A DNA stretch of 56,330 nt from the NCBI GenBank assembly GCA_009886115.1, contig VFJJ01000021.1:1-56330 (forward strand), given 5' to 3'. The stretch is from Actinomycetota bacterium. Lineage in GTDB: Bacteria; Actinomycetota; Acidimicrobiia; IMCC26256; VFJJ01. The notes under the pieces were generated by a model that worked only from the letters and a program-made list of their open reading frames with translations, was not told the origin of the DNA and did no database searches. Both the position numbers and the translations under genes were made by a program. Within the stretch, counting starts at the first letter, position 1. Each line of letters opens with the position of its first letter. Positions 23,907 to 48,173 of this stretch are shown piece after piece.

Positions 23907-23910
<4 letters not shown>

Positions 23911-26582: not shown

Positions 26583-27880
26583 TCGAGGATCCGCTCTGGG
26601 CCGACGGCGAGATCGACCTCGCCGATGTCGTCATCATCATCGGCAAGGTCATCTTCGCGTTCGCGTTCTTGATGATCACCGTGGTGCTCTTCATCTGGTT
26701 CATGCGCAAGGTCATCAGCGACATGCAGAACCGGATCGGGCCCAATCGGGCCGGCCCGTTCGGCATCCTGCAGACGCTGGCCGACGGCGTGAAGCTGTTC
26801 ATGAAGGAGCAGTCGATCCCCGAGCAGGCCGACCAGCGGATCTTCAAGCTGGCCCCGTATCTCACGCTGTTGCCGGCCTTCCTGGCGTTCTGCGTGATCC
26901 CGTGGGGAACTCAGATCACCATCGCCGGGAACACGACGAACCTCCAGGTCGCCGAGATCCCCATGGGCGTGCTGTGGATCCTGGCGATGTCGGGCATCGG
27001 GGTGTACGGCGTGATGCTCGCCGGGTGGGCCTCGGGCTCGAAGTACCCGCTGCTCGGCAGCATCCGGGCCTCGGCCCAGGTGATCTCCTACGAGGCTGCG
27101 CTGGGTTTGGCCGTCATCGGCGCGGTGATCCGCTCGGGGAGCCTCTCGATGCAGTCGTTCGTGGCCGTCCAGGCGTGGGACGGCCCGGGCTCGCTGCGCG
27201 ATTGGCTGATCGCCTCGGCGCCCCTGTCGTTCGTCATCTTCGTGATCGCCGCCTTGGCCGAGACGAACCAGCCGCCGTTCGACCTTGTCGAGGCCGAGCA
27301 GGAGCTCGTCGGCGGGTTCCACACCGAGTACACCGGTATCCGGTTCGCGATGTTCAACGTGGCCGAGTTCATGAACCTGGTCACCATGTCGGCCGTCGCC
27401 ATCACGCTGTTCCTCGGCGGTCCCAACGGTCCGGGGACCGACCGGGCCGACAATTGGGGAGCGCTCATCTCCTTCGCCTGGTTCGTGGGCAAGCTCTGGA
27501 TCTTCCTGTTCGCGGCCGTGTGGCTGCGAGCGTCGGTTCCCCGCCTGCGCTACGACCAGCTGATGGACCTCGGGTGGCGCAAGCTCATCCCCCTGGCGCT
27601 GGTGTGGACGGGCATCCTGGCGGTCATCAAGGTGGGTCGGGCCGAGGGCTGGGAGCCCGGGATCTACCTTCCGGCGTCGTTCGCGGGTGCCGGTCTGGTG
27701 GCCCTGTTCATCTACGCCTGCATGCCCAAGCGCGAGCTGGTCCCGGCTCCGAGCGGCCGCAGCGTCCCGAGTGGCCCGAGCGGTCCGAGCGGCACCGGCG
27801 ACACCAGCGGCACCAGCGGAATCGACACCAGCGGCAGCACCACGAGCGGCACGGCGCCGAAGGAGGTGGCGCACCGATGA
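26579..27880 (+). CDS. nuoH: NADH-quinone oxidoreductase subunit H (14-subunit operon)
   Basis: 433 residues; ATG overlaps the nuoG stop. Eight or so membrane helices. The quinone-channel loops are canonical: [17 protein letters not shown] with [13 protein letters not shown], and [25 protein letters not shown]. After the last helix there is a tail of about 45 residues made almost only of Ser, Gly, Pro and Thr (SGPSG, TSGTSG repeats), which is not part of the fold. It connects the peripheral arm to the proton-pumping membrane arm. Confidence 0.97.
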
Positions 27881-28617
27881 GTCGTTGGTCGGGGTTCGCG
27901 GTCACGTGGCGGCAGATGTTCAAGCCACGGGTGACGATCCAGTACCCGGAGGTCAAGCGGCCCAAGCCCGAGCGCTTCCACGGCCGGCACGTCCTCAACC
28001 GGTACGAGGACGGCATGGAGAAGTGCATCGGCTGCGAGCTGTGCGCTGGCGTGTGCCCGGCCCGCTGCATCTACGTGCGCGGCGCCGACAACTCAGCCGA
28101 CGCCCCCGTCTCGCCGGGCGAGCGGTACGGCTTCGTGTACGAGATCAACTTCCTGCGGTGCATCCATTGCGACCTGTGCGTGGAGGCCTGCCCCACCGAG
28201 GCCATCACGGAGTCGAAGCTCTTCGAGTTCTCCTTCACCAACCGGCGTGACGCCATCTACACCAAGGCCGAGTTGCTCGTCGACGACGACGGGCGGGCCC
28301 GGCGCATGCCGTGGGAGCACTGGGAGGGCCACGAGGACGACCGCACGTCGGCGTGGATGCGGGCCACGGCGTCGGCCGGTCAGGCGGCGTTCGAGGGCCG
28401 GGTGTCGTGGTCGGGCGAGCTGGGCTTCGGCGTGCGGGCCCCCGAGGCCGGCCAGACCGCGCCCACCTGGACCCCGCCTGTACCGGCGCTCGCCCGAGGA
28501 CGCGCCGACCACGGTCACGCCGACCACGGACGCGCCGACCACGGTCACGCCGACCACGGTGACCACGCCGACCACGATCACGACGACGACCACACGACCA
28601 CGGGGGGCACTGAGTGA
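27877..28617 (+). CDS. nuoI: NADH-quinone oxidoreductase subunit I (14-subunit operon) with His/Asp-rich tail
   Basis: 246 residues; ATG overlaps the nuoH stop. Two [4Fe-4S] clusters, N6a and N6b, are bound by C50, C53, C56, C60 and C95, C98, C101, C105 with their CP partners. The N-terminal amphipathic segment ([20 protein letters not shown]) is normal. The C-terminus is not: residues 210-239 repeat [10 protein letters not shown] and end in DHDHDDDH, with 10 His and 10 Asp in 30 residues, encoded by a 12-bp-type repeat. The tail could bind metal ions. The other NuoI in this window (41537-42031) has no such tail. Confidence 0.96.
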
Positions 28618-29219
28618 GCGAGGTAGCACAGTGGGTCGTCTTCATCGTCGCCTCGTCGGCCGCGATCGGGATGGCCGTCGGCGTCGTCACCCAGCGCAAC
28701 CCGGTGCACGCCGCGCTCGCGCTGGTCGGCACGCTGTTCGCCGTGGCGGTCCTGTTCGTCATGCAGGAGGCCCACTTCCTCGCGGCCGTGCAGATCATCG
28801 TGTACGCCGGCGCCATCGTGGTGCTGTTCCTGTTCGTCATCATGCTCCTCGGCATCGACAAGCACGAGGTGCTCGACGAGACGCTTCCGCTCCAGCGGAT
28901 CATCGCCGGCATCGTGGGGCTCGGTTCGCTCGTCGTCGGAGCGATCTTGCTCCTCAAGGCCGATGCCGCTCCCCCGGTGACCGACCCGGATTCGACGTCG
29001 CGCATCTCCGGCAGCGGCTTGGGCAACGTCGAGCACATCGGCCGGAGCCTGTTCAGCGACTACCTCTGGGCCTTCGAGATCACCTCGGTGCTGCTGGTGA
29101 TCGCCGTGGTCGGCGCCGTCGTGCTGGTGCGCCGTCGCTCGGGCCCCGACGCCCCCGAGGGCCGCGAAGGCCTGGGCGCTGCTGGCGACGCGGGCGGATC
29201 CGAGAAGGCCCGGGCATGA
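28614..29219 (+). CDS. nuoJ: NADH-quinone oxidoreductase subunit J (14-subunit operon)
   Basis: 201 residues from a GTG that overlaps the nuoI stop. Five membrane helices; the pi-bulge helix region reads [27 protein letters not shown], which is the NuoJ signature, after [17 protein letters not shown] polar loop of about 30 residues separates helix 4 from helix 5, and the C-terminal 25 residues form a Gly/Glu-rich tail. It lies in the membrane arm between H and K and helps couple quinone reduction to proton pumping. Confidence 0.96.
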
Positions 29220-29524
29220 CGGCCATCGACGCCAACCTCTTCCTCGCCGTCGCCGCGATCGTCTTCGTGATCGGCGCGGTGGGTCTGCTCACCCGCCGCA
29301 ACGCCCTGGTCATGTTCATGTGCGTCGAGCTGATGCTCAACGCCGTGAACCTCACGTTCGTCACGTTCTCCCGTGAGCTCGACGACATCGGTGGTCAGGT
29401 CACGGTGTTCTTCACCATGGTCGTCGCTGCCGCTGAGGTCTGTGTGGGCCTGGCGATCATCGTGGCGATCTTCCGGCGCCGTCGTGGCGCCACGGCCGAC
29501 GACCTGAACCTCATGAAAGGCTGA
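29216..29524 (+). CDS. nuoK: NADH-quinone oxidoreductase subunit K (14-subunit operon)
   Basis: 102 residues; ATG overlaps the nuoJ stop. Three membrane helices with the conserved glutamates in [14 protein letters not shown] and [14 protein letters not shown], which are part of the central proton path. The ending [12 protein letters not shown] is typical. Length is standard (about 100). It sits between J and L in the standard order. Confidence 0.97.
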
Positions 29525-29534
29525 GGAGGACACC

Positions 29535-31586
29535 ATGAACCTCCTCGAGACGTCCTGGTTGATCCCCGCGCTGCCGCTCCTGGGCGCGGTCACGCTCCTC
29601 TTCTTCGGTGGCCGATTCCTGAAGGAGCCCTTGGCTGGGATGCTGGCGACGGCCTGCATGGCCGGCTCGTTCGGCTGGACGGCCGTCCTGTTCTTCAAGA
29701 TGTGGTCGCTCGATCCCGAGCAGCGCACCGTGGGCAAGCATCTCTTCGACTGGATGCCTGCCGGGGGCCTGAAGATCTCGGCCAGCCTCCTGCTCGATCC
29801 GCTCTCGATCACGTTCTTGTTGTTCATCACCGGTGTGGCGACGCTCATCCACGTGTACGCCATCGGGTACATGCACGGCGATCCCCGGTTCAGCCGCTTC
29901 TTCTGCTACCTGAACCTGTTCGCCTTCTCGATGATCATCCTCGTACTCGGGGGCAACTTCCTCGTGACCTTCCTCGGATGGGAAGGGGTCGGCACGTGCT
30001 CGTACCTGTTGATCTCGTTCTGGTTCGAGCGCCCGTCGGCCGCAACGGCGGGCAAGAAGGCGTTCATCACCAACCGGGTCGGCGACTTCGGGTTCATGAT
30101 CGCCGTGTTCTTGATCATCTCCCACCTCGGCACGCTCGAGTACTGGGGTCCGGGCAACGCCCTCGAGGGGGCGAGCACGCTCACCAACGGCGCGGCAACC
30201 GGTATCGCCCTGATGCTGTTCCTCGCCTGCACGGGCAAGAGCGCCCAGTTCCCCCTGCACGTCTGGCTGCCCGACGCCATGGAGGGCCCCACGCCCGTCT
30301 CGGCGCTGATCCACGCCGCCACCATGGTCACGAGCGGGATCTTCCTCATCGCCCGGGCCCATCCCTTCTTCGAAGCCAGCGGCCAGGCCAGTCACGTCGT
30401 GGCCTGGGTCGGCGTGGGCACCGCGCTGCTCGCCGCCACCATCGCCATGGTGAAGAACGACATCAAGCGGGTTCTGGCCTACTCCACGCTGAGCCAGCTC
30501 GGCTACATGTTCATGGCGCTGGGTATCCACGCCTACTCCACGGCGATCTTCCACGTCGTCACCCACGCGTTCTTCAAGGCCTGCCTGTTCCTCGGGGCCG
30601 GCTCGGTGATCCACGGCATGCACGACGAGCAGGACATGCGCCGGATGGGCAACCTGCGCAAGTACATGCCGATCACCTACGCGACCTTCATGGTGGCCTG
30701 GCTGGCGATCGCCGGGGTCCCGCCGTTCTCCGGGTTCTGGTCGAAAGACGACATCCTCGCCAAGGCCTGGTTCCAGGGCACCACCGAGGGCAAGGCCTTG
30801 TGGGCCATCGGGTTGCTGACGGCCATGCTCACGGCCTTCTACATGACACGCCAAGTCGTCATGGTGTTCTTCGGCCACGAGCGCTTCGACCTCCCGGTCA
30901 TCGCCGGCGGCTCCGACGACGGTCCGTCCGGCGCCCGGGCCCACGGCGCCGACGGGACCAGCGCTGGCGCCGAGCCCCAAGACGACCACGGCCCCACCGG
31001 GTCGGGGCACGGCCGCAGAAAGCTCCCCCACGAGTCACCGTGGATCATGACCGTGCCCCTGGTGCTGCTCGCCGGGCTCTCGCTCGTCGGTGGCGTCATC
31101 AACTTGCCGTTCAAGGACAAGGGCTGGGGCGAGGCGCTCACGCACTGGTTGGAGCCCGTCTTCGAGGGCGTGACCCATCCCGAGGAGAAGGGCAGCACGC
31201 TCGTGGGTCTCGCCGCGGTCACCGTCGTGCTGTGTGCGGTGCTCGTGGGCGCAGCCTTCGCGGTCTACCGGCACATGACGACCACCCGCGACCCGTTCGT
31301 GACCAAGCTGGGGCCCGCCGCCGCGGTGCTCGACTCGGGCTACGGCGTCGATGCCGCCTACGCCGCACTCACCGTCGGCGCCGGTGGACGGGCGGCCGAG
31401 GTGCTCGCCGGTCCGGTCGACCAGGGCAGCATCGACGGAGCCGTCAACGGCATCGGGGAGCTCCTGCGGTCGGGGCTCGGTACGGGCGGCTCGCGACTCC
31501 AGTCCGGCTACGTCAGGCGGTACGCCGTCGGGATCCTCACCGGTTCGGTGGGCCTGGTCGTCTTCGCGGTGATCAAGGCCTGGTGA
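29535..31586 (+). CDS. nuoL: NADH-quinone oxidoreductase subunit L (14-subunit operon)
   Basis: 683 residues, ATG with GAGGAGG upstream. An antiporter-like proton-pumping subunit with about 15-16 helices. Conserved features are the glutamate in FLGWEGVGTCSYLLISFWFE, the lysine/histidine helix in KSAQFPLHVWLPDAMEGPTPVSALIHAATMV, and the C-terminal lateral helix. A hydrophilic insert of about 40 residues (455-495; GSDDGPSGARAHGADG...) breaks the membrane domain near helix 13, rich in Gly, Asp and His. The GTG of nuoM overlaps its stop. Confidence 0.97.
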   Translation: MNLLETSWLIPALPLLGAVTLLFFGGRFLKEPLAGMLATACMAGSFGWTAVLFFKMWSLDPEQRTVGKHLFDWMPAGGLKISASLLLDPLSITFLLFITGVATLIHVYAIGYMHGDPRFSRFFCYLNLFAFSMIILVLGGNFLVTFLGWEGVGTCSYLLISFWFERPSAATAGKKAFITNRVGDFGFMIAVFLIISHLGTLEYWGPGNALEGASTLTNGAATGIALMLFLACTGKSAQFPLHVWLPDAMEGPTPVSALIHAATMVTSGIFLIARAHPFFEASGQASHVVAWVGVGTALLAATIAMVKNDIKRVLAYSTLSQLGYMFMALGIHAYSTAIFHVVTHAFFKACLFLGAGSVIHGMHDEQDMRRMGNLRKYMPITYATFMVAWLAIAGVPPFSGFWSKDDILAKAWFQGTTEGKALWAIGLLTAMLTAFYMTRQVVMVFFGHERFDLPVIAGGSDDGPSGARAHGADGTSAGAEPQDDHGPTGSGHGRRKLPHESPWIMTVPLVLLAGLSLVGGVINLPFKDKGWGEALTHWLEPVFEGVTHPEEKGSTLVGLAAVTVVLCAVLVGAAFAVYRHMTTTRDPFVTKLGPAAAVLDSGYGVDAAYAALTVGAGGRAAEVLAGPVDQGSIDGAVNGIGELLRSGLGTGGSRLQSGYVRRYAVGILTGSVGLVVFAVIKAW

Positions 31587-33253
31587 CGACGATGACCGAC
31601 TTCCCCCTCCTGACCGCACTGGTGATCGTCCCGGCTCTCGGGTCGCTCATCGTCACCCTCTTGCCCAAGCAGCGCCCCGAGATCGTGCGGGCCTTCGGGT
31701 TCATCGCCATGATGGCCACGGCCGCCCTTGCCGGCTATCTCGTCTACGCCTTCGAGATCCAACAGCCCGAGTCGTTGCGCGACAGCTTCCAGTTCGTCGA
31801 AGACCACAGCTGGATCAACAACCTCGGGGTCCGGTACATCCTCGGTGTCGACGGCATCAGCTTGTTCATGGTGGCGCTCACCGGGTTGCTCTTCCCGTTG
31901 AGTCTCTTCGCTTCGGCCAAGGTCGAGCATCGGCTCAAGAGCTACATCGCATCGATGCTCCTCCTCGAAGCGGGGATCATGGGCGTGTTCCTCGCCCTCG
32001 ACCTGATCCTGTTCTTCGCGTTCTGGGAGGTGATGCTCGTCCCGATGTACTTCATCATCGTGGGCTGGGGTCACGAGCGTCGCGTGTACGCCGCGGTGAA
32101 GTTCTTCCTCTACACGATGGCCGGATCGGCCGTGATGTTCGTGGGCATCCTCGCGGTTGCGCTCTTGCACAACTCGTCGGTGGGCTCGCTCACGTTCGAC
32201 CTGCGTGTCCTGCAGGAGTGGAACGGACTCGCCGAAGGGACGGCCCGCTGGCTGTTCCTGGCGTTCTTCATCTCCTTTGCCATCAAGGTCCCCCTGTTTC
32301 CCTTCCACACCTGGCTCCCCGACGCCCACGTCGAAGCGCCTACGGCAGGCTCGGTGATCCTGGCCGGCGTGCTCTTGAAGATGGGCACGTACGGGTTCTT
32401 GCGTTTCTCGCTCACCCTGTTCCCCCAGGCTTCGGTCGACCTGGCGTGGGTGATGCTCGTCCTGGCGACGATCGGGATCATCTACGGGGCGATCGTGGCG
32501 ACGGTCCAAAAGGACATGAAGAAGCTCGTCGCCTACTCCTCGGTGGCTCACCTCGGTTTCGTCATCCTCGGGATCTTCGCCCTCACCAGCCAAGGCATCC
32601 AGGGCGGCATCTTCACCATGATCAGCCACGGGCTCACCACGGGAGCGCTGTTCCTGATCATCGGGATGATGTACGAACGCCGCCACACCCGTGACATCGC
32701 CGCGTTCGGCGGCGTATGGAAGGTCGCCCCGCGCTTGGGCGGGTTCATGCTCGTGGCGGCCTTGGCCTCGGTCGGCCTCCCCGGCTTCTCGGGTTTCGTC
32801 GGCGAGTTCCTCGCGCTGGTCGGCGCCTTCTTGTCGAACCGCCCATACGCCATCGTGAGCGCGGTGGGCGTGATCCTCGCGTCGGTCTATCTGTTGTGGA
32901 TGTACCAGCGGGTGTTCACGGGTGAGCCCGAAGGCGAGAACCGCACCATCGCCGACCTGACCTGGCGCGAGATGGCGACGCTGGTGCCCCTGCTCGGGCT
33001 GAGCCTGTTCCTCGGCGTGTACCCCAAGCCGGTGCTGGAGCGCGTCGAGCCGTCGGTCAAGGCGCTCATCACCCATGTGGAGCAACGCTCCGACTGGTGC
33101 GAGAGCGACAAGGTCGACCCCGACGATCCCGAGGCGTGCGTCCCCGGCGATCGCTTCGAGACGGCGCCCGAGACCTCCCCTGAGGCTGAGGGTGAGGGCG
33201 GGTCCGAGTCTGAAGAGAACGAACCGGTCGGCGCCGAAGAAGGAGGCGGGTGA
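31583..33253 (+). CDS. nuoM: NADH-quinone oxidoreductase subunit M (14-subunit operon)
   Basis: 556 residues from a GTG that overlaps the nuoL stop; an ATG three codons on (31592) is an alternative. Antiporter-like subunit with the glutamate in FFAFWEVMLVPMYFIIVGWG and the lysine in FAIKVPLFPFHTWLPDAHVEAPTAGSVILAGVLLK. The last 55 residues leave the membrane and are strongly acidic (EAEGEGGSESEENEPVGAEEG), a tail absent from the second NuoM. It pumps one proton in current models of complex I. Confidence 0.96.
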   Translation: MTTMTDFPLLTALVIVPALGSLIVTLLPKQRPEIVRAFGFIAMMATAALAGYLVYAFEIQQPESLRDSFQFVEDHSWINNLGVRYILGVDGISLFMVALTGLLFPLSLFASAKVEHRLKSYIASMLLLEAGIMGVFLALDLILFFAFWEVMLVPMYFIIVGWGHERRVYAAVKFFLYTMAGSAVMFVGILAVALLHNSSVGSLTFDLRVLQEWNGLAEGTARWLFLAFFISFAIKVPLFPFHTWLPDAHVEAPTAGSVILAGVLLKMGTYGFLRFSLTLFPQASVDLAWVMLVLATIGIIYGAIVATVQKDMKKLVAYSSVAHLGFVILGIFALTSQGIQGGIFTMISHGLTTGALFLIIGMMYERRHTRDIAAFGGVWKVAPRLGGFMLVAALASVGLPGFSGFVGEFLALVGAFLSNRPYAIVSAVGVILASVYLLWMYQRVFTGEPEGENRTIADLTWREMATLVPLLGLSLFLGVYPKPVLERVEPSVKALITHVEQRSDWCESDKVDPDDPEACVPGDRFETAPETSPEAEGEGGSESEENEPVGAEEGGG

Positions 33254-34821
33254 TGCCGTTCGTCCGTCCGTCCGTCGACTGGTACGCCATCGCACCCGAG
33301 ATCGCCATCTTCGGTGCCGGGCTGCTCATCGTGGCCTTCGCCGCCGTCACGCACCGCGCACCGATCCTGGCCCGCCTCCACCTGTGGGTCGCGCTCACCG
33401 GGGTGGCCGTCGCCGGGGCGTTCATCTTCCCCATCTGGCATCGCTGGAACGAGGGGCTCGAGGCAGTCGAACGCGTCCCCAGCTACACGACGCTCAACGG
33501 GGCGGTCTCCATCGACGGGGCCTCGATCTTCCTGAAGGTCGTGGTGCTCGTCGCCGTGGTGCTCGGGATCCTCGTCTCGTGGAGCTATCTGAAGCGCGAG
33601 AACCTCGAGAAGCCCGAGTACCTGGCGCTGTTGCTGTTCTCGGCGTCGGGCATGCTGATGATGACCTCGGCCAACGACCTGGTCGTGGTGTTCGTTTCGC
33701 TGGAGATCCTCTCGATCTCGTTGTACGTGCTGGCGGCTTTCCAGCGGGCCAAGGCCACGTCGCAGGAGGCGGCCATCAAGTACTTCGTGCTCGGGGCCTT
33801 CTCATCGGCGATCTTCCTGTACGGGGTGGCGCTCGTCTACGGCGCCACGGGCAGCACGAACCTCGCCCGGATCTCGGCCGTCATCAACCAGAGCCAGCTC
33901 CAGGGCTCCACGTACGACACGAAGCTGATCCTGGTCGGGATCATGTTGTTGCTCGTCGGGTTGGGGTTCAAGGTCGCGGCCGTCCCCTTCCACATGTGGA
34001 CGCCCGACGTGTACCAGGGGGCACCCACGCCGGTCACCGGGTTCATGGCGGCCGGGGCCAAGATCGCCGCGTTCGCCGCGCTGCTGCGGGCGTTCTCGGT
34101 CAGCTTCCAGGGAAACCAGGACGACTGGCGGCCCGCTCTGTGGGCTGTGACCGTGCTGACACTCGTGGTTGCCAGCGCCGTCGCGCTCGTGCAGAGCAAC
34201 GTGAAGCGGATGCTCGCCTACTCGTCGATCAGCCACGCCGGCTACATGCTCGTGGGCGTGCAGGTGGCCACGGTCAAAGGCACGGCGGCGGTCCTCACGT
34301 ACCTGTTCGTCTACACCTTCCTCACGCTCGGCACCTTCACCGTCGTGACGCTCATGGCCCGTGAGGGCGACGAAGGCCACGAGCTCACCGACTACCGCGG
34401 CCTGGCGGCTCGCGAGCCGCTGCTCGCGAAGTTGCTCACCCTGTTCTTGTTGGCGCAGGCCGGCATTCCGCTCACGTCGGGGTTCATCGCCAAGCTCAAG
34501 ATCTTCGAGGCCGCCGTCGATCGTGAGGTCTACTCGCTGGCGATCATCGGCATGCTGGCATCGGTGGTGGCGGCGTTCGTCTACCTCCGTCTCATCGTGA
34601 CCATGTTCACCGGGTCCGGGATCGACGAGCACCCCGACCCCGCCGACGATGCGGCCCGCGGCACCCACGGCGGGGGCACCGCAGTGGCGATCGCGGCGCC
34701 CCCTCGGGTGAAGGTCGACCTGGCCAGCGGCATCGTCCTGGCGCTGGCCGCGGCCGTCACGATCTTCGTCGGCATCCTCCCCAACGAGCTGCTGGAGTTC
34801 GCCGAACGAGCCGTCTTCTAG
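33253..34821 (+). CDS. nuoN: NADH-quinone oxidoreductase subunit N (14-subunit operon)
   Basis: 522 residues from the ATG at 33253, which shares its first base with the nuoM stop and has AGGAGG five bases upstream; the GTG at 33250 is too close to the ribosome site. Antiporter-like subunit with FVSLEILSISLYVLAAFQR, GFKVAAVPFHMWTPDVYQGAPTPVTGF and VKRMLAYSSISHAGYMLVG. Last gene of the operon. Only 19 bases separate its stop from that of the convergent hipA remnant, and no terminator hairpin is visible there. Confidence 0.97.
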   Translation: MPFVRPSVDWYAIAPEIAIFGAGLLIVAFAAVTHRAPILARLHLWVALTGVAVAGAFIFPIWHRWNEGLEAVERVPSYTTLNGAVSIDGASIFLKVVVLVAVVLGILVSWSYLKRENLEKPEYLALLLFSASGMLMMTSANDLVVVFVSLEILSISLYVLAAFQRAKATSQEAAIKYFVLGAFSSAIFLYGVALVYGATGSTNLARISAVINQSQLQGSTYDTKLILVGIMLLLVGLGFKVAAVPFHMWTPDVYQGAPTPVTGFMAAGAKIAAFAALLRAFSVSFQGNQDDWRPALWAVTVLTLVVASAVALVQSNVKRMLAYSSISHAGYMLVGVQVATVKGTAAVLTYLFVYTFLTLGTFTVVTLMAREGDEGHELTDYRGLAAREPLLAKLLTLFLLAQAGIPLTSGFIAKLKIFEAAVDREVYSLAIIGMLASVVAAFVYLRLIVTMFTGSGIDEHPDPADDAARGTHGGGTAVAIAAPPRVKVDLASGIVLALAAAVTIFVGILPNELLEFAERAVF

Positions 34822-36273: not shown

Positions 36274-37269
36274 TCAGCGGGGGCGGCGGATGCGGGACGG
36301 TCGACGCTGCTCGTCGGATTCCACGGGATGCTCGTCGAGGAAGCGGGCTGCATCGCGGTACGCGGTCTCGCCGATGTCGTCAGCGCCGGAGAAGTCGAAG
36401 ATCGTCCTGTCGTCGGCGGGGTGGGGGAGCTCGATCACCTCGATGTGCGCCGGGACGGAGCCGCGCTCGATCTCCCAGCGCTGCTTGCGGGCGATGGCGA
36501 ACGCCTGCAGGAGCGCGTCGCCGGGGTGACGGAGCTCGCGGGGCTTGATGACGCCCGACACGTTGAGCACGTACACGCGCACCGGCGCCGCCGATGATGC
36601 TCGGCCCGGCGCGATCGAGTGGGCGAAGGCGTGGGCGACGGGGACGTTGTTGACCACGGCTCCGTCGATGAAGCGTCGCCCGCCGTACTCCACGGGCGGC
36701 AGGAGACCGGGCAGGGCCGTCGATGCCATGAGCGCCGGCCGCAACAGGCCGGCGGCGAACACCGCCTCCTCGCCCGTCGCCAGATCGGTGGCGACGACCC
36801 GCAGCGGCACGGTGAGGTCATGGAACGAGCCGGCCGCGAACCGCTCGACGAGCGCGGCGATCCCGGTGTCGCGAATGAGATGGGTGTCCTTGCGCACCAC
36901 CTTCCACGTACGCGACCACCGTCCGCCCGGGAAGATGTCCTCGGCGGTGAGCGACGACCACACCTCGGCCAGGCGCGCGACGCTCGCCAGGGTCGGGTCG
37001 GCAGCCAGGGCCGAGCCGTTGAGCGCGCCCACCGACGTCCCCACGATCACGTCGGGCACGATCTCGCGCTCGAGCAGCGCGCGGAGCATGCCGACCTGGG
37101 CGACACCGTGGTTCCCCCCGCCCGACATGACGAACGCCACGGTGGGCCGCCCGGCCATCCGGCGCAGGCGCGCCTGGTCGGCTCGATGCCGCAGCCGTCT
37201 GAACGCCAGGGTGTGCATCGTGGAACGGTCCTCCGCGCGCATCGCGCGATCACGCTTGTCGTGCTGCAT
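36274..37269 (-). CDS. Patatin-like phospholipase
   Basis: 331 residues from the ATG at 37269, preceded by GAGGGA; a shorter version from 37218 is also possible. The patatin catalytic pair is present: nucleophile S79 in VGTSVGALNG and D202 in RFIDGAVVNNVP, with the oxyanion loop MSGGGNHGVAQVG (residues 48-60). About 40 basic residues precede the domain and an Arg-rich tail ends the protein. There is no signal peptide or membrane helix, so it is probably a cytoplasmic or membrane-face lipid acyl hydrolase. It is divergent from the second complex I operon, with the Rex-like palindrome between them. Confidence 0.9.
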   Translation of the reverse strand: MQHDKRDRAMRAEDRSTMHTLAFRRLRHRADQARLRRMAGRPTVAFVMSGGGNHGVAQVGMLRALLEREIVPDVIVGTSVGALNGSALAADPTLASVARLAEVWSSLTAEDIFPGGRWSRTWKVVRKDTHLIRDTGIAALVERFAAGSFHDLTVPLRVVATDLATGEEAVFAAGLLRPALMASTALPGLLPPVEYGGRRFIDGAVVNNVPVAHAFAHSIAPGRASSAAPVRVYVLNVSGVIKPRELRHPGDALLQAFAIARKQRWEIERGSVPAHIEVIELPHPADDRTIFDFSGADDIGETAYRDAARFLDEHPVESDEQRRPSRIRRPR

Positions 37270-37403
37270 GGGTCCCTCGGTGAACATGTCGGCCCCGAAG
37301 TGCGACGGGCAAGGGGCGGGGGCAAGGTGCCTGCTCATCATGACTGAACATCGGTAGATCGGGGGGTCGGTCCCCATCGCGGCGCTTCCGTACGCGTCGT
37401 CGG

Positions 37404-37435
37404 TTGCCCGTCTCGTGAAGGCATTCACGTATACT
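37404..37435 (+). promoter_or_regulatory. Predicted promoter of the 11-subunit nuo operon with Rex-like palindrome
   Basis: TATACT (37430-37435) is a strong -10 box; TTGCCC at 37404-37409 is a weak -35 with a 20-base spacer. Between them lies TCGTGAAGGCATTCACGT (37413-37430), containing the perfect inverted repeat CGTGAA-N4-TTCACG. It fits the Rex operator TTGTGAA-N4-TTCACAA at 11 of 14 positions and would block the promoter when occupied. Confidence 0.55.
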
Positions 37436-37617
37436 CGGCCGGCGTTGGCGAGGGGTTCGGGGGGTAACCGAGCCGAGAGGTGGTCGTACTACGATTCGCC
37501 CGGTGAGGCGGTCGGGGGCCGTCTCCCGGAACCCTGGGTTCTTGCCCAGCAGCGCACTGTTTCACGCCAGTTCGTGGCGGTCGACCGGGAGTCGGAGGGC
37601 AGCGTGATCGGAGGGCC
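37436..37617 (+). promoter_or_regulatory. About 175-base leader of the 11-subunit nuo operon
   Basis: No ORF is convincing. Two hairpins can be drawn: GGTTCGG/CCGAGCC (37454-37460 with 37468-37474, one G-U pair, 7-base loop) directly after the predicted transcription start, and CTGGG/CCCAG (37534-37538 with 37545-37549). GGAGGG precedes the nuoA start. The leader is unlike the leaderless start predicted for the first nuo operon. Confidence 0.4.
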
Positions 37618-38010
37618 ATGGCGATCCGGGCACTGACGGGGTCGGTGTACACCGACCACACGCAGGCGTACTTCGCCGTGTTCGTGTTCGCCCTCGCGGC
37701 CTTCGGCATGGTCGCCGCGATGCTCGGCCTCGGACGGCTGATCCGACCGAGCCGGCCTCAGGCCCAGAAGTACATCTCCTACGAGTCCGGTGCCGACCCG
37801 ATCGGTGGCTTCGGGCAGATGCACGTGCGCTACTACATCTACGCGCTGCTGTTCGTGATCTTCGACGTCGAGGCGGTCTTCATCTTCCCCTGGGCCGTCG
37901 AACTCGAGGCCCTCGGCGCCTTCGGTCTGGTCGAGATGGTCATCTTCGTCGGCATCCTCGTGTTCGGGCTGGCCTACGCGTGGCGCAAGGGAGTGCTCCG
38001 ATGGGCCTGA
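37618..38010 (+). CDS. nuoA: Complex I-like subunit A (11-subunit operon)
   Basis: 130 residues, ATG with CGGAGGG upstream. Three helices; the NuoA loop reads [43 protein letters not shown]. The conserved cysteine of the usual ECG loop is serine here (YESG). It has no C-terminal tail, unlike the first NuoA. First gene of an 11-gene operon lacking nuoE, nuoF and nuoG. Its stop overlaps nuoB by ten bases. Confidence 0.95.
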
Positions 38011-38528
38011 TCGAGTCGGGTCTGCTCCAGAAGAAGCCGCTCAAGCCGGTCTCGTGGCTGCTCAACTACAGCCGCAAGTACTCCCTGTGGACGTTCCAGT
38101 GGGGCCTGGCGTGTTGTGCCATCGAGATGGGCGCGGCCCTGGCCGGACCCCGTTACGACGTGATGCGTCTGGGCGTCATCCCCTTCCCCGCAAGTCCCCG
38201 CCAGGCCGACCTGGTCGTGGTCTCGGGGACGGTCACCGACAAGATGGCCCCGTCGGTGCTGCGGCTCTACGAGCAGATGCCCGACCCCAAGTACGTGATC
38301 TCGATGGGCTCGTGCGCCAACTGCGGCGGTCCCTACTGGGACTCCTACTCGGTGACCAAGGGGATCGACCAGATCATCCCGGTCGACGTCTACGTTCCCG
38401 GGTGCCCGCCGAGGCCCGAGGCGTTGATGGAAGCCATCGTGATCCTCCAGCAGCGCATCCAGAACGAGGGTGTCGGCAACGACGAGCTCCGCCAACGATG
38501 GCGGGGAGAGCACATTCTCGTCGACTAG
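38001..38528 (+). CDS. nuoB: Complex I-like subunit B (11-subunit operon)
   Basis: 175 residues from the ATG at 38001, overlapping the end of nuoA. All four N2 ligands are kept: C38, C39, C105 and C135 ([26 protein letters not shown]). An extra cysteine (C108) follows the third ligand. The sequence is clearly divergent from the first NuoB, so this is not a recent duplication. It should pass electrons from NuoI to quinone without an NADH module. Confidence 0.97.
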
Positions 38529-38612
38529 GCGTGAAGGTCGGTGGCGCTCACCGGGCAGTGGATGGGCGCGTGTCGCAGCAGCTTTCGCAGCAGGATTCCC
38601 GGGGGACTCCAG

Positions 38613-39317
38613 GTGGCAGACGAGCAGACGGTCGACGAGGCCGCGACAACCGAGGGCTCCACGAGCGTGGCGACGATCGACGCGGGGCCCGTCGCTGCCG
38701 TCGACAGCGCCATCGAAGCGCTGCGCGCTCGCGTCGTCGCCGAGCTGGGCTCGGCGGTGGTGGCCCACGAGATCAACCATGGGGTCGTGACCGTTCGGGT
38801 CACCACCGAGTCGTGGCGTCGTACCGCCGAGATCGTCCGGTCGAAGCTTGGCTTCGATTACCTCTCGTTCATCGCCGGCATCGACTGGATGCCCGCCCCC
38901 AAGGTGGGCGGCGAGGAGCTCGCCGGCGACACGTCGACGCCGGCCCAGCCGATGGAGCAGACCTACGGCGTCTGCGGCTCGGCCGGGCGCTTCCAGGTCT
39001 TCGCCGCCGTCACCTCGCTGTCTCGCAAGACGACGCTGGTGCTCAAGACCGACGTGTCCGAGACCGAGCCCATCGTGGCGTCGTGGGTCCCCGTCTATCC
39101 GGGCGCCGACTGGCACGAGCGTGAAACCTGGGAGATGTACGGGTTCCGTTTCGACGGCCATCCGGGGCTGCGGCACCTCTACCTTCCGGGTGAGTTCGAG
39201 GGGTTCCCGCTGCGCAAGGACTTCCCGCTGCTGGCCCGCGAGGTCAAGCCCTGGCCGGGCCTGGTCGACGTCGAGCCGATGCCGGGCGTCGCCGACGGCG
39301 ACGAAGGTGAGGAGTGA
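38613..39317 (+). CDS. nuoC: Complex I-like subunit C (11-subunit operon)
   Basis: 234 residues from the GTG at 38613, preceded by GGGGGAC; a GTG at 38541 would add 24 residues. The 30-kDa signature is present: WHERETWEMYGFRFDGHPGLRHLYLPGEFEGFPLRKDFPL. It is longer than the first NuoC, with an insert around GEELAGDTSTPAQPMEQ before the central strand. It stays separate from nuoD, which begins 4 bases after its stop. Confidence 0.94.
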   Translation: MADEQTVDEAATTEGSTSVATIDAGPVAAVDSAIEALRARVVAELGSAVVAHEINHGVVTVRVTTESWRRTAEIVRSKLGFDYLSFIAGIDWMPAPKVGGEELAGDTSTPAQPMEQTYGVCGSAGRFQVFAAVTSLSRKTTLVLKTDVSETEPIVASWVPVYPGADWHERETWEMYGFRFDGHPGLRHLYLPGEFEGFPLRKDFPLLAREVKPWPGLVDVEPMPGVADGDEGEE

Positions 39318-39321
39318 GCTC

Positions 39322-40509
39322 GTGACGACCACCGAGATTCCCGGATCGCCCGACTTCGAGATCGACCCGCGGGCGTTGACCCCGCTGGCCGATCAGCGCC
39401 TCGACATCGAGCTCCAGTCCGAAGACATGGTCCTCAACATCGGCCCGCAGCATCCGGCGACGCACGGCACGTTGCGGGTCGTCGTGCGGCTCGACGGTGA
39501 ACGTGTCGTCTCGGCCGACCCGGTCATCGGCTACATGCACCGCGGCTACGAGAAGCTCACCGAGTACCGCACCTACCCCCAGGTGACGACGCTCATCAAC
39601 CGGATCGACTGGTTGTCGTCGTTCGCCAACGAGGTGCCGTTCATCCACGCCGCAGAGCGCATCATGGGCGTCGAGGCCCCGCCTCGGGCGGAGTGGATCC
39701 GCACGGCGCTCACCGAGCTCTCCCGCATCGCCACGTTCATCCTCTTCCTCGGCGAGATGGGCCTCCAGGTCGGGGCCATCACCCCGGCGTTCTACGGCTT
39801 CCGCGACCGCGAGCACGTCCTCAACCTCATCGAGGCCGTCACCGGCGGGCGCTTCCACCCCAACTTCAACCGCATCGGCGGCATCAAGGACGACCTGCCG
39901 GCGGGGTGGATCAACGAGACCCGCCGGGTCATGGGCCTGATGCTCGAGTCGTGCGACCAGTTCGAGGATCTGGTGGCGGGCAACGAGATCTTCCAGGCCC
40001 GCACCCGCGGCTGCGGCATCATCCCGGCCGACGTGGGTGCCGCCTACGGGGTCTCGGGCTCGAACCTGCGGGCTTCAGGCGTCGACTGGGACCTGCGCCG
40101 CGACGGTCAGCCGTACCTCGCCTACCGCGAGCTCGACTGGAAGGTTTTCACCCATCCCGACGGTGACACCTTCGCCCGCTACTGGGTGCGGCTGCAGGAG
40201 ACCCGCGAAGCGATCCGCATGGTGCTGCAGATCCTCGACGGCCTCCCGGCGGGCCCGGTCATGGCCAAGGTCCCCCGCATCATCAAGGTGCCGGCCGGTG
40301 AAGCCTGGGTGAACACCGAGAACCCGCTCGGCGAGATGGGGTACTACGTCATCTCGAAGGGGGCGACGGGCCCGTTCCGCGTGAAGATCCGCACGGCGTC
40401 GTTCAGCAACGTCTCGATCCTGCCCTGGTTGCTCAAGGGCGTGTACGTTCCCGATGTCGTGACCATCCTCGCCGGGCTCTACTTCATTCTCGGAGACATC
40501 GACCGATGA
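39322..40509 (+). CDS. nuoD: Complex I-like subunit D (11-subunit operon)
   Basis: 395 residues from a GTG at 39322 with AGGAG upstream. The 49-kDa fold is complete (IGPQHPATHGTLR, APPRAEWIRTALTELSRI, C-terminal LADxx-like end YFILGDIDR). Two positions matter. R74 in GYMHRGYEK matches the arginine dimethylated by NDUFAF7 in mammalian NDUFS2, and the first NuoD has Thr there. W97 in NRIDWLSSFANE stands where the quinone-binding tyrosine is found in nearly all complexes I; the first NuoD keeps Tyr. The histidine of the quinone site is kept. This suggests a modified quinone site and a maturation step by the adjacent methyltransferase. Confidence 0.96.
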   Translation: MTTTEIPGSPDFEIDPRALTPLADQRLDIELQSEDMVLNIGPQHPATHGTLRVVVRLDGERVVSADPVIGYMHRGYEKLTEYRTYPQVTTLINRIDWLSSFANEVPFIHAAERIMGVEAPPRAEWIRTALTELSRIATFILFLGEMGLQVGAITPAFYGFRDREHVLNLIEAVTGGRFHPNFNRIGGIKDDLPAGWINETRRVMGLMLESCDQFEDLVAGNEIFQARTRGCGIIPADVGAAYGVSGSNLRASGVDWDLRRDGQPYLAYRELDWKVFTHPDGDTFARYWVRLQETREAIRMVLQILDGLPAGPVMAKVPRIIKVPAGEAWVNTENPLGEMGYYVISKGATGPFRVKIRTASFSNVSILPWLLKGVYVPDVVTILAGLYFILGDIDR

Positions 40510-41537
40510 TTGAGACTCTCGCGGTCGACTTGGCCTGGGGCTGGATCCTGGCCATCAAGACCGCCGTCGTCTTGAGCATCATCCCGTTCGGGGCGTTGCT
40601 GCTCGGGTACGTCTTCCTGCTCAAGATGATGAGCCACATGCAGAGCCGGCTCGGGCCCATGGACCCGGGTGGGTTCCACGGCTGGTTCCAGCTCATCGGT
40701 GACGGCATCAAGTTCCTCCAGAAGGAGGACATCACCCCCGAAGGTGCCGATCGACGGGTCTTCGCCCTGGCTCCGGCCATCATCTTGGTCTCGACGTTCC
40801 TCGTCTACATCGTGATTCCCGTCGGACCTCGCCTGATCGTGCGCGACCTCGACGTCGGCATCTTCTTCGCCTTGGCGGTGTCGTCGTTGTCGGTCATCGG
40901 TGTGCTCATGGCCGGCTGGGCCTCGGCCAACAAGTACGCCCTGATCGGGGCCTTGCGGGCCGCCGGTCAGCTCATCGCCTACGAGCTCCCGCTCGTGCTG
41001 GCCACCGTCGGCGTCGTCATCCAGGCCGGCACGATGAGCCTCCAGGGGATCGTGTACGCCCAGCAGAACGGCGAGATCTTCGGCTGGGGCGGCATCGGCA
41101 ACCCCTTCATCCTCACCCAGATCGTGGGTTTCCTCCTCTTCCTCACCGCGGCGCAGGCCGAGCTCACCCAGACGCCCTTCGACATGCCCGTCGCCGAGTC
41201 CGAGATCGTCGGCGGGTACTACGTCGAGTACACGGGCTTTCGCTTCCTCTTCTTCTTCATGGGCGAGTTCGGGACGGCGTTCGCCTTCGCCGGCATCGCG
41301 GCCACGCTGTTCCTGGGCGGCTGGTCGGTCCCCTGGGTCGACGGTACCGCCGCCGACGTGCTGGGCCCGATCGTGATGCTCACCAAGGTGATGCTCGTCT
41401 CGTTCCTCATCTTCTGGGTGCGGTTCACGTATCCGCGGTTCCGAGAAGACCAGCTGCAGTCGATCGCCTGGAAGTACCTCATCCCGCTCTCGCTCGTGAA
41501 CATCCTCGTCACCGGCATCCTGAAGGTGGCCATCTGA
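40506..41537 (+). CDS. nuoH: Complex I-like subunit H (11-subunit operon)
   Basis: 343 residues; ATG overlaps the nuoD stop. Eight membrane helices. The first quinone loop reads [34 protein letters not shown], where the usual GPNRxGPxG has become [10 protein letters not shown]. The second loop is [27 protein letters not shown]. The differences agree with a remodelled quinone cavity, like the Tyr-to-Trp change in NuoD. It lacks the Ser/Gly tail of the first NuoH. Confidence 0.95.
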
Positions 41538-42031
41538 TGCCGAAGTTCCCCAAGCCCAAGCTTCCCGGCGTCATCAGCGGTCTCGGCATCACGTTCCGTA
41601 CGATGCTCAAGCCGGCGGTGACCGTCCAGTATCCGCACGAGAAGGAAGAGCCCGTCACCCGGGCTCGGGGCGTCATCGCGCTGAAGGAAGAGAACTGCAC
41701 GGCGTGCATGCTGTGTGGGCGATCGTGTCCCGACTGGTGCATCTACATCGAGGGGCACAAGGAGAAGCGCCCGCCGCGCCGAGCCGGGGGCAAGCCCCGC
41801 ACGGTGAACATCCTCGATCGCTTCGACATCGACTACGCGTTGTGCATGTATTGCGGGATCTGCGTCGAGGTCTGCCCGTTCGACGCCCTGTTCTGGACCC
41901 CTGAGTTCGAGTACTCAGAGAACCGCATCGCCGATCTCCTGCACGACATGGACCGGCTGGGCGAGTGGATGGCCACCGTCCCCACCCCACCGCCGCTCGA
42001 GGTCGGTGCGCTCGTGAAGGCGAAGAAGTAG
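41537..42031 (+). CDS. nuoI: Complex I-like subunit I (11-subunit operon)
   Basis: 164 residues; the ATG at 41537 shares a base with the nuoH stop. Two [4Fe-4S] clusters: C54, C57, C60, C64 and C103, C106, C109, C113. With NuoE, F and G absent, this is the most exposed electron entry point, the place where ferredoxin docks in the chloroplast and cyanobacterial NDH complexes. A basic loop ([15 protein letters not shown]) between the two clusters could form an acceptor surface for an acidic donor such as ferredoxin; that is an inference. Confidence 0.95.
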
Positions 42032-42525
42032 TGGGGCCCGAGAACGTCGTCTTCGCCGTCATCGCGGCGGCCATGGTCTTCTCGGCCATCCGGGTGGTCA
42101 CGACCCGCAACATCGTGCACGCCGCGCTGTACCTCGTGATCGTGCTGGCCGGGATCGCCGCGCAGTACATCCTCTTGGCCTCCGAGTTCTTGGCCTGGGT
42201 CCAGGTGCTCATCTACATCGGCGCGGTGCTGGTGCTGTTCCTGTTCGGGATCATGCTCACCAAGGCCCCCATGCGCGGCGACAACGACCTCGACAACGAC
42301 CAGCGCTGGCCGGCGGCGGTGGCGTCGCTGTTCCTCGCCGGGGTGTTGGGGACGATCCTCATCGACGGCTACGGCGACGTCGAGATCGCCGAGCCCGAGA
42401 AGATCGTGCGCACGGGTGATCTGGGCCGGTCGATCTTCCACGACTGGGTCATCCCCTTCGAGGTGGTCTCCATGCTCTTGTTGGGTGCGCTGATCGGCGC
42501 CATCGTGATCGCCCGGAGGGACTGA
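42031..42525 (+). CDS. nuoJ: Complex I-like subunit J (11-subunit operon)
   Basis: 164 residues from a GTG sharing a base with the nuoI TAG. Five helices; VVTTRNIVHAALYLVIVLAG and FLAWVQVLIYIGAVLVLFLFGIML are the NuoJ signatures. Shorter than the first NuoJ, with no C-terminal tail. The stop is followed by nuoK after 6 bases. Neighbouring subunits H, K and L are all present, so a full membrane arm can be built. Confidence 0.94.
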   Translation: MGPENVVFAVIAAAMVFSAIRVVTTRNIVHAALYLVIVLAGIAAQYILLASEFLAWVQVLIYIGAVLVLFLFGIMLTKAPMRGDNDLDNDQRWPAAVASLFLAGVLGTILIDGYGDVEIAEPEKIVRTGDLGRSIFHDWVIPFEVVSMLLLGALIGAIVIARRD

Positions 42526-42531
42526 CGCACG

Positions 42532-42834
42532 ATGGTGCTCAACCAGTTCCTCCTCCTCAGCCTCTTCTTGTTCTGCACCGGCGTCTACGGCGCGCTCGTG
42601 CGGCGCAACGGGGTGCTCGTGCTGATGAGCATCGAGTTGATGCTCAACGCCGCCAACCTCAACCTGGTGGCCTTCTCGGCGTTCTACAAGACCGAGATCT
42701 CCGGTCAGGTCTTCGCGCTGTTCGTCATCGCCATCGCGGCCGCCGAGGTGGGCGTGGGTCTGGCCATCGTCCTGCTCTTGTATCGCAACCTGTCGTCGGC
42801 CGATCTCGATCGTGCCGACTCGATGAAGGGCTGA
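42532..42834 (+). CDS. nuoK: Complex I-like subunit K (11-subunit operon)
   Basis: 100 residues, ATG at 42532. Three helices with the essential glutamates in [15 protein letters not shown] and [14 protein letters not shown]. Ends [12 protein letters not shown], close to the usual NuoK ending. Length is normal. It keeps the proton-path residues, which argues that this complex pumps. Confidence 0.95.
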
Positions 42835-42844
42835 GGGAACTCGA

Positions 42845-45052
<2,208 letters not shown>

Positions 45053-45113
45053 CACGGCCCGCGAACGTCGCCCGTCCCACACCTGAACGCATGAACCGAG
45101 AAGGATTCCCGGA

Positions 45114-46673
45114 ATGAACTGGTTCGACGACTGGGGCATCACGCTGACGGTGTTCATCCCCATCGTGGGAGCGATCATCGTCTTGCTCATCCCGAAGGGC
45201 GAGGAGGAGACGATCAAGGGCGTCGCTCTCCTCACGTCGCTCGTCACGCTGGGTTTCGCCATCGGGCTCATGGCCGAGTTCGACTACGACGACACGGCGA
45301 AGCTGCAGTTCGACGTGAACACGTCGTGGATCGACGTCATCAACAGCCGCTACCACGTGGCCATCGACGGCATCAGCCTGCCTCTGGTTCTGCTCTCGGC
45401 GCTCATCATCGTGCTGTGCATCGTCTACTCGTGGAACCACTTCCCCGAGCCCCACAATCCCAAGGCGCTCCTGGCGTTGATGCTCGTGCTCGAGACCGGG
45501 ATGATCGGCACGTTCGTGGCCCAGGACCTCATCCTCTTCTTCATCTTCTTCGAGGTGGTCCTGCTCCCGATGTACTTCATGATCGGCGTGTGGGGCGGCA
45601 AGAACCGCGAGTACGCCTCGATCAAGTTCTTCCTGTTCACGCTGTTCGGCTCGGCGCTCATGCTCTTGAGCTTCCTGGCCGTGTACTTCAGCTCGAAGGA
45701 CCCGCTCACAGGTCAGCACACGTTCGATATCGTCACCCTGTCGACCGCGGGGGTCCTCGATGTCTCCAAGACCGCTGCGGTGGTGATGTTCGGCGGCATG
45801 TTCCTGGGCTTCGGGATCAAGGTGCCGATGTTCCCGTTCCACACCTGGCTGCCCGACGCCCACACCGAGGCGCCCACCGTGGGCTCGGTGATCCTGGCCG
45901 CCGTGCTGTTGAAGCTCGGCACCTACGGCTTCATCCGCGTCGCCCTGCCGATCCTGCCCGAAGGAGCCCAGGAGTGGGCGCCCTACATCGGGCTCCTCGC
46001 CGTGATCGGCATCATCTACGGCGCGCTCAACTGCCTCGCCCAAAAGGACGTGAAGCGGCTCATCGCCTTCTCGTCGGTGGCGCACATGGGTTTCGTGATG
46101 CTCGGTATCGCCACGCTCACGAGTGCCGGCATCAACGCCGCCGTGTTCGGCATGGTGGCCCACGGTCTCATCACCGGCCTGTTGTTCTTCATCGCCGGCT
46201 CGATGCAAGAGCGCTACCACACCCGCGAGATGTCACGCTTGGGGGGTCTGCTCATCTCGGCCCCCAAGATGGGCTGGATCCTGGGCTTCACGGCCATGGC
46301 ATCGCTCGGGCTCCCCGGCCTCGCCGGCTTCTGGGGCGAGTTCCCTGCGATCCTGGCGGCCTACGAGCCGCTGAGCGTGCTCTCCGAGGAGACCTTCCGA
46401 ACGTACATGGTGATCGCCGCGGTCGGCACCGTGCTCGCTGCGGCCTACCTGCTCGTGATGTACCAGCGGGTCGCCATGGGCGAGGTGCCCGAGGAGTTCA
46501 AGGACGAGCACATCCACGATGTGCACGGCCCCGAATGGATCGCCTGGGCTCCGATGCTGATCCTCATCTTGGCCTTGGGGGTCTTCCCGAAGTTGCTCTT
46601 CGGTATCACCGACGACGCCGTCAAGCACGTGACCGACGGCATCGCCACCGCGCTCAACGCGACCTCGAAGTAG
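45114..46673 (+). CDS. nuoM: Complex I-like subunit M (11-subunit operon)
   Basis: 519 residues, ATG preceded by AGAAGGA after a 61-bp gap. Antiporter-type features: FFIFFEVVLLPMYFMIGVWGG, where the conserved glutamate is kept, and FGIKVPMFPFHTWLPDAHTEAPTVGSVILAAVLLK. It lacks the acidic C-terminal tail of the first NuoM. The gap before it is the largest inside this operon, but I see no separate promoter. Confidence 0.95.
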   Translation: MNWFDDWGITLTVFIPIVGAIIVLLIPKGEEETIKGVALLTSLVTLGFAIGLMAEFDYDDTAKLQFDVNTSWIDVINSRYHVAIDGISLPLVLLSALIIVLCIVYSWNHFPEPHNPKALLALMLVLETGMIGTFVAQDLILFFIFFEVVLLPMYFMIGVWGGKNREYASIKFFLFTLFGSALMLLSFLAVYFSSKDPLTGQHTFDIVTLSTAGVLDVSKTAAVVMFGGMFLGFGIKVPMFPFHTWLPDAHTEAPTVGSVILAAVLLKLGTYGFIRVALPILPEGAQEWAPYIGLLAVIGIIYGALNCLAQKDVKRLIAFSSVAHMGFVMLGIATLTSAGINAAVFGMVAHGLITGLLFFIAGSMQERYHTREMSRLGGLLISAPKMGWILGFTAMASLGLPGLAGFWGEFPAILAAYEPLSVLSEETFRTYMVIAAVGTVLAAAYLLVMYQRVAMGEVPEEFKDEHIHDVHGPEWIAWAPMLILILALGVFPKLLFGITDDAVKHVTDGIATALNATSK

Positions 46674-46679
46674 CGGCAG

Positions 46680-48173
46680 ATGCTGAGCGTGGGCATCCCT
46701 GCACCCGACATCGACTACCACGCGCTCGCGCCCGAGATCGTGGTCGCGGGGACGATCCTGCTGATCCTGCTCGTCGACCTGATCTTCGGCGACCGGGCGA
46801 GGGCCCACGCGTCGCGGATCGCCGCGTTCGGAGTGCTCGGGGCGCTCATCCCCGTCCTCACGTTGGGCGCCGACGGCGGCGACGTCAGCATGTTCAACGG
46901 CACCTTCGTCGTCGACAACTTCGCACTCGTCATGAAGGCGTTCTTCCTCATCGTCACCTACCTCGTGATCCTGGTGTCGGTCGACTCGATGTCCGAGAGC
47001 GACGTCGCCGAGCCCGAGTACTACCTCATGACGCTCACCGCCCTGTTGGGCATGATGGTCATGGGATCGAGCCGCGACCTCATCACGATCTTCGTCGCCC
47101 TCGAGACGATCTCCATCCCCACCTATCTGTTGGCCGGATGGAAGAAGCACGAGCACAAGTCGAACGAGGCGATGCTCAAGTACTTCGTCTTCGGCGTGCT
47201 GTCGTCGGCCGTGATGCTCTACGGCATGTCGCTCGTGTACGGCGCCACCGGCTCGACGTTGTTGTCGGTCATCGCCGAGGGTCCTCGCACCGACCTCGGA
47301 CAGGATCTCGGCACGGTGATGAACGTGGGGATCTTCCTCACCCTCGTCGGCTTCGCCTTCAAGGTCAGCGCCGTGCCGTTCCACTTCTGGACGCCCGACA
47401 CCTACGAGGGCGCGCCCACACCGGTCACAGCGTTCCTCTCGGTGGCGTCGAAGGCCGGCGGCATGGTGGCCATCTTCTCGCTCATCTACGTCGGCTTCTA
47501 CGGACGCACCGACGCCTGGCAGCCCATCATCTGGGTCATGGCGGCGTTGTCGATGACCGTCGGCAACATGATCGCGACGAAGCAGACGAACATCGTCCGC
47601 ATGCTCGCCTACTCGTCGATCGCCCAGGCCGGCTTCATGCTCGTACCGTTCGCCGTGGCGCCCGAGGACGGGCTGAACTCGTACCAGAGCGCCTTCTCGG
47701 CCACGGTCATCTACATGCTCATCTACGGCGCCATGAACATCGGGGCCTTCGCCACGCTCATGGCGATCGCCCGGCGCACGCGCTCGGGGGAGATCTCGAG
47801 CTTCGCCGGGCTCTTCAGCTACGCGCCGACGCTGGCCATGATGATGTCGATCTTCCTCATGTCGCTCGCGGGGGTCCCGATCTTCGCTGGCTGGTTCGCC
47901 AAGTTCGTCATGTTCCAGGCCACGATCGACGGCGGCACCGGGATGGCCTACGCGCTCGGCATCGTCGCCGCGGTCAACTCGGTGATCGCGTTCTTCTACT
48001 ACGGCAACGTCATCCGCTTGATGTTCTTCCGTGAGCCCACCGTCGAGGACCGCTCACCGATCCGGGTGCCCACGGCGCTGGGCGCGGCCATCGCCCTGTG
48101 CGCCATCACGACGGTGGCCGTGGGCATCTACCCCGAGCTCTTCGCCCGCCTGGGCGAGCGCACGCCGTTCTAG
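46680..48173 (+). CDS. nuoN: Complex I-like subunit N (11-subunit operon)
   Basis: 497 residues, ATG at 46680, six bases after the nuoM stop. Antiporter-type features: FVALETISIPTYLLAGWKK, AFKVSAVPFHFWTPDTYEGAPTPVTAF and IVRMLAYSSIAQAGFMLV. It completes a membrane arm with three antiporter-like subunits (L, M, N), as in standard complex I. It is followed 109 bases later by the MidA-like methyltransferase gene in the same direction. Confidence 0.95.
   Translation: MLSVGIPAPDIDYHALAPEIVVAGTILLILLVDLIFGDRARAHASRIAAFGVLGALIPVLTLGADGGDVSMFNGTFVVDNFALVMKAFFLIVTYLVILVSVDSMSESDVAEPEYYLMTLTALLGMMVMGSSRDLITIFVALETISIPTYLLAGWKKHEHKSNEAMLKYFVFGVLSSAVMLYGMSLVYGATGSTLLSVIAEGPRTDLGQDLGTVMNVGIFLTLVGFAFKVSAVPFHFWTPDTYEGAPTPVTAFLSVASKAGGMVAIFSLIYVGFYGRTDAWQPIIWVMAALSMTVGNMIATKQTNIVRMLAYSSIAQAGFMLVPFAVAPEDGLNSYQSAFSATVIYMLIYGAMNIGAFATLMAIARRTRSGEISSFAGLFSYAPTLAMMMSIFLMSLAGVPIFAGWFAKFVMFQATIDGGTGMAYALGIVAAVNSVIAFFYYGNVIRLMFFREPTVEDRSPIRVPTALGAAIALCAITTVAVGIYPELFARLGERTPF

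Follow-up and report, generated by a model that had tools for sequence, protein, structure and literature searches.

Putative Rex operators at the promoter of an 11-subunit complex I operon and inside nuoC of a coexisting 14-subunit operon in a member of the Acidimicrobiia

Results

We analysed a stretch of 56,330 nucleotides from an Acidimicrobiia genome (the window), which carries rex together with two complex I operons, one of 14 and one of 11 subunits. Comparison with related genomes, some of them incomplete, makes it more likely that Rex controls both nuo operons, at the promoter in the case of the 11-subunit operon and from inside the operon in the case of the 14-subunit one. We base this on the sequences of two palindromes, hereafter the nuo11 site and the nuoC14 site, on their conservation, and on the co-occurrence of the nuoC operator with rex, all of which are observed. 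The features concerned are the following.

7306-11505, minus strand: hemA, hemC, hemD and hemB, co-oriented with rex and downstream of it (family matches)
11515-12297, minus strand: rex (NF003992, 340 bits against a cut-off of 226)
12379-12396, TTGGGATTCGTTTCACAA read on the minus strand: putative rex operator, adjoining the rex -10 box TAATAT (motif and matrix searches)
18962-34821, plus strand: 14-subunit complex I operon nuoA-N, with NuoE, NuoF and NuoG (family matches)
20070-20654, plus strand: nuoC of the 14-subunit operon (PF00329)
20084-20101, no strand: the nuoC14 site, a putative Rex-type operator TCGTGAA-GACG-TGCACGA (TCGTGAAGACGTGCACGA) over codons 5-11 of that nuoC (matrices, conservation, codon use)
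36274-37428, minus strand: longest frame of a divergent patatin-like phospholipase gene (family match)
37401-37435, plus strand: core promoter of the 11-subunit operon, CGGTT-N24-TATACT, with the -10 box at 37430-37435 (alignment of about 50 relatives)
37413-37430, no strand: the nuo11 site, a putative Rex-like operator TCGTGAA-GGCA-TTCACGT of the 11-subunit operon (pattern, copy-number, class-wide and matrix searches)
37618-48173, plus strand: 11-subunit complex I operon nuoABCDHIJKLMN (Pfam, NCBIfam)

The 11-subunit operon encodes a complex without an NADH module, as an earlier note on this DNA had described: its genes follow the order A, B, C, D, H, I, J, K, L, M, N, and neither Pfam nor NCBIfam profiles detected NuoE, NuoF or NuoG in it. 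Patatin recurs in relatives as the divergent neighbour of nuoA(11) (window 36274-37618), and the true start of the gene here lies probably further inside the longest frame. Directly 3' of the operon is a methyltransferase gene of family PF02636 (48031-49506), to which the complex I assembly factor NDUFAF7 also belongs, and two dynamin-like GTPase genes stand side by side on the minus strand at 52346-55766. The rex gene of the window is the only Rex gene of the genome.

The nuo11 site holds a perfect 6-4-6 inverted repeat, CGTGAA-GGCA-TTCACG (37414-37429), directly followed by TATACT, and the 18-bp site ends on the first T of this hexamer (37430); the inverted repeat and its junction with the -10 box are thus as previously claimed. 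The claim that the half-sites have the spacing of Rex operators was likewise confirmed, since two inverted half-sites flank a 4-bp centre and the site agrees, with exact spacing, at 11 of the 14 scored positions of the Gram-positive Rex consensus TTGTGAA-N4-TTCACAA, which we used as the reference for counting mismatches. The three mismatches are C2, G17 and T18, and the last of them can be ascribed to the overlapping -10 box, which forces the base at this position. For the other two we considered the form that the motif takes locally. At least 11 of the 14 consensus bases are present at 44 of 47 rex promoters (this genome and its relatives), the rate in shuffled sequences being 0.2%. The order-level motif of these promoters shows no variation at T1, G3, G5, A6, C14, A15 and C16 and hardly any at A18; position 2 takes T, C or A and position 4 takes T, A or G, and at position 17 A or G predominates. 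The local motif therefore admits both C2 and G17, which counts for Rex at the nuo11 site. In some Acidimicrobiia (L257 and L258) the region upstream of rex has a different arrangement, TTGTGAA-CTC-GTGAA, with a second half-site that is direct and not inverted.

The exact sequence CGTGAA-GGCA-TTCACG occurs only once within the 56-kb window, where copies with at most two mismatches number 8 against 1.75 expected. Across the 5.4-Mb genome, which was covered by a mismatch pattern search (the weight-matrix scan covered the window), CGTGAA-N4-TTCACG has six exact copies, while the reversed control pattern does not occur. At least three of the other copies sit within long reading frames, where they look like coding coincidences, and one precedes a multicopper oxidase gene. 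Weight matrices were built from the rex promoters of the relatives, from their nuoC14 sites, or from both. With all of them the three best matches of the window are those at 12379 (rex), 20084 (nuoC14) and 37413 (nuo11), with scores of 16.7 to 23.0, followed by a next-best match at 8.0 to 13.4. Shuffled windows attain the nuo11 score 0 to 0.03 times. On the same matrices the footprinted nuoA1 site of S. avermitilis scores 16.8 to 18.6, which places the nuo11 site within the range of proven sites. Judged from the sequence, the nuo11 palindrome is not a chance match.

Two other sites in the same genome were observed. A textbook Rex-type site, TTGTGAACGGATGCACGA (L133:1501-1518, contig C13), lies upstream of the gene for cytochrome c oxidase subunit II; the idea of a conserved Rex site upstream of cox2 was rejected, the site being present here and absent in relatives. 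The second, TCGTGAAGCGCTTCACGA (L134:1501-1518, contig C30), lies 43 bp ahead of a cupredoxin/multicopper oxidase gene that is weakly similar to copper nitrite reductase.

The nuo11 site overlaps its target promoter. The core promoter, CGGTT-N24-TATACTCCGC, is kept order-wide (relatives L013-L042 and L073-L093), with its CGGTT element unusually placed, and in three genomes, G000 (this one), G005 and G014, the CGGTT-N24 spacer contains the palindrome right up to the -10 box; here the last base of the site is also the first of TATACT, a hexamer conserved among relatives. A sigma-70 scan at the site found no consensus hexamer pair, the -35 being poor (TTG, 20-bp spacer), and a terminator scan found nothing. 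In 395 Acidimicrobiia genomes the exact pattern TCGTGA-N6-TCACG-TANACT occurs four times. Three copies precede nuoA(11) and are flanked by patatin on their other side; the contig with the fourth (G025), which precedes patatin, breaks off about 25 bp beyond it, before any nuoA. Within the order the site is confined to few relatives and is lineage-specific, and a single origin of it in families f1, f6 and f15 was not supported, the NuoA-NuoB tree lacking resolution. In other families of the Acidimicrobiia, GTGA-N6-TCAC is recurrent at nuo11 promoters, where it mostly abuts a TAGNNT -10 box. The 24 nuo11 sites collected across the class have A after GTGA in 16 cases and T before TCAC in 12, a Rex-like preference, whereas T1, invariant at rex promoters, is found in 15. 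Every genome with an abutting site that was checked for rex contains it. In sets of genomes chosen regardless of the site, the nuo11 site is present in 12 of 110 rex-bearing and in none of 23 rex-less genomes, a difference that is not significant (p=0.13).

According to the earlier note, the 14-subunit operon shows no comparable site. No Rex-type site was found upstream of its nuoA. Within nuoC, however, the palindrome at 20084-20101 matches 11 of the 14 consensus positions and outscores the nuo11 site with every matrix tried, being the best or second-best match in the window, so that the statement does not hold for the operon as a whole. Of 39 rex-bearing relatives, 28 have the palindrome in an unchanged reading register, and none of the 10 rex-less ones has it (p=4e-5). 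The rex-less genomes represent three families, and in one of these families rex-bearing members do carry the site; G005 was scored as lacking it though the start of its nuoC is not covered. Counted by genus, with G005 excluded, the site is found in 22 of 29 rex-bearing and 0 of 4 rex-less genera (p=0.008). This dependence on the presence of rex indicates Rex as the protein of the nuoC14 site and, since the sites track rex, suggests that the half-sites TCGTGAA and TTCACG, which are those of nuo11, are used by Rex here.

The nuoC14 site is in frame, its register is constant, and it encodes a loose motif (for example A-R-E-x-x-H-E), as would fit a conservation acting on the protein or the RNA and not on a DNA operator. 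We hold this to be unlikely. Firstly, the codons at the site are biased towards T- and A-ending ones, although third positions in these genes are T in 8% and A in 6.7% of cases: the codon preceding CGT has T as its third base in 26 of 28 sequences, across five amino acids; Arg is CGT in 24/24 where present, against a background of 28/260; and Glu is GAA in 27/28. Secondly, an RNA hairpin was rejected for lack of covariation, as the presumed stem shows no compensatory changes and its pair 2-17 does not form in 14 of 26 sequences. Thirdly, the site is missing wherever rex is missing. Taken from the sequences, the nuoC14 palindrome looks like a DNA operator within the coding sequence rather than the trace of protein- or RNA-level conservation.

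Because the three top matrix matches of the window are the rex, nuoC14 and nuo11 sites, Rex is the best candidate regulator of the 11-subunit operon, and the nuo11 palindrome is probably an operator for it. The proposal that Rex acts at this promoter, made before, is supported by comparison in that rex and its operator lie in the window, the half-sites are those of the rex-tracking nuoC14 site, and the palindrome resembles the wblE site of S. avermitilis described below; it is less secure in that a CRP-type protein fits the same core. Also counting against Rex are the three consensus mismatches, the presence of T1 in no more than 15 of the 24 nuo11 sites, the small number of relatives in the order that carry the site, and its nonsignificant association with rex.

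The main rival, and a serious one even if we consider it rather improbable, is that a CRP/FNR-family protein reads the nuo11 site, in which case the operon would respond to cAMP or another signal and not to NADH. Actinobacterial CRP-type sites have a GTGA-N6-TCAC core, and this core is exact in all collected nuo11 sites (the search itself required it); G014 and G025 lose the inner TTCAC of Rex sites and retain the CRP core. Moreover, CRP-like proteins whose recognition helix has the form RE-x-x-x-R are encoded in the genome (L006, SRERVNR; L009, IRETASR). Set against actinobacterial CRP-type sites, the inner bases, the TTCCC variants and the association with rex seen here favour Rex: A7 and T12 are enriched as at Rex sites, TTCCC in some nuoC14 sites breaks the CRP core but has its counterpart in the TTGGGA of rex promoters, and the nuoC14 sites, whose half-sites are the same, vanish where rex is absent. 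An autoregulatory CRP motif, sought as a yardstick, was not found, no GTGA-N6-TCAC-type site being present ahead of the CRP-like genes.

It is much less probable that the nuo11 site serves the divergent patatin gene as an operator, as the earlier note had allowed, or arose by chance. Its place between divergent genes and the roughly six exact genomic copies, several of them in coding sequence, would agree with such an origin, but more than half of the relatives have patatin beside nuoA(11) and only a few of these have the site, a distribution that weakens the case for a patatin regulator. In addition, the conserved block takes in the nuo -10 box, which the site abuts wherever it is present; the four exact copies in the class are at the nuoA11/patatin junction, with nuoA seen in three; and related sites lie at nuo11 -10 boxes in other families. 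Finally, a MerR-type activator using a palindrome in a long spacer, for which the 20-bp distance between TTG and TATACT might speak, is hardly credible, since the palindrome is off-centre, reaching to the -10 end of the spacer, and the long spacing also occurs in relatives without the palindrome.

Discussion

With Rex as the preferred regulator at both sites, we propose the following mechanism, in which we infer, for nuo11 and nuoC14 alike, that Rex binds, that it represses, and in which direction NADH acts. NADH-free Rex would cover the spacer up to the nuo11 -10 box and keep RNA polymerase off, and a high NADH/NAD+ ratio would release it from this promoter. Rex, whose gene lies 25 kb from the nuo11 palindrome in the same window, would also control its own rex-hem operon, and the 11-subunit complex would then, as the earlier note expected, rise with NADH together with heme synthesis. 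At nuoC14, Rex would most likely stop the elongating polymerase or act on an internal promoter. A more specific scheme, which we put forward as possible though doubtful, is that Rex blocks initiation at nuo11 but acts as an intragenic roadblock at nuoC14, such that at low NADH nuoAB would be transcribed and nuoC-N, including the NADH module, would be cut off.

Control of both operons by Rex implies that both complexes would rise with NADH. The division of labour between the two nuo operons that the earlier note had envisaged is therefore not supported, because the 14-subunit operon carries a Rex-type site in nuoC, and this site is the better conserved of the two. If co-control by a single NADH sensor is true, it would set the 11-subunit complex I in the redox response of the NADH-oxidising complex and of heme synthesis. 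A Rex operator within a coding sequence, missing wherever rex is missing, would represent an unusual mode of Rex action, and the nuoC14 site suggests that scans restricted to promoters overlook part of a Rex regulon. In the literature searched, with the terms used, we found no report of Rex in Acidimicrobiia or of intragenic Rex operators.

In S. avermitilis, Rex operators (ROP) are found at nuoA1-N1, rex-hem, cydA1 and wblE; Rex represses nuoA1-N1 and rex-hem via spacer sites, those at nuoA1 and rex lying between -35 and -10 and that of wblE far downstream of the transcription start, and sites with three mismatches are bound more weakly (PMC5355995). The wblE site TCGTGAAAGCGTTCACAT, footprinted in that study, and the nuo11 site differ by one base outside the N4 centre. 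As in S. avermitilis, rex is found here with hem genes, an 18-bp site with a 4-bp centre lies between -35 and -10, and a complex I operon is the apparent target. The two systems differ in the operon concerned: in S. avermitilis the site is at the promoter of the 14-subunit operon and binding is proven, whereas here the sites, predicted from sequence, lie at the 11-subunit promoter, abutting the -10 box, and inside nuoC of the 14-subunit operon. Intragenic positions have a parallel in CRP of Mycobacterium tuberculosis, about half of whose palindromic sites are intragenic (PMC4117774). The 11-subunit complex I-like enzyme of Desulfitobacterium hafniense shares the order nuoABCDHIJKLMN and the lack of an NADH module (PMC11238625, where Rex is not mentioned); unlike that system, the 11-subunit operon described here coexists with a 14-subunit operon located 18 kb upstream.
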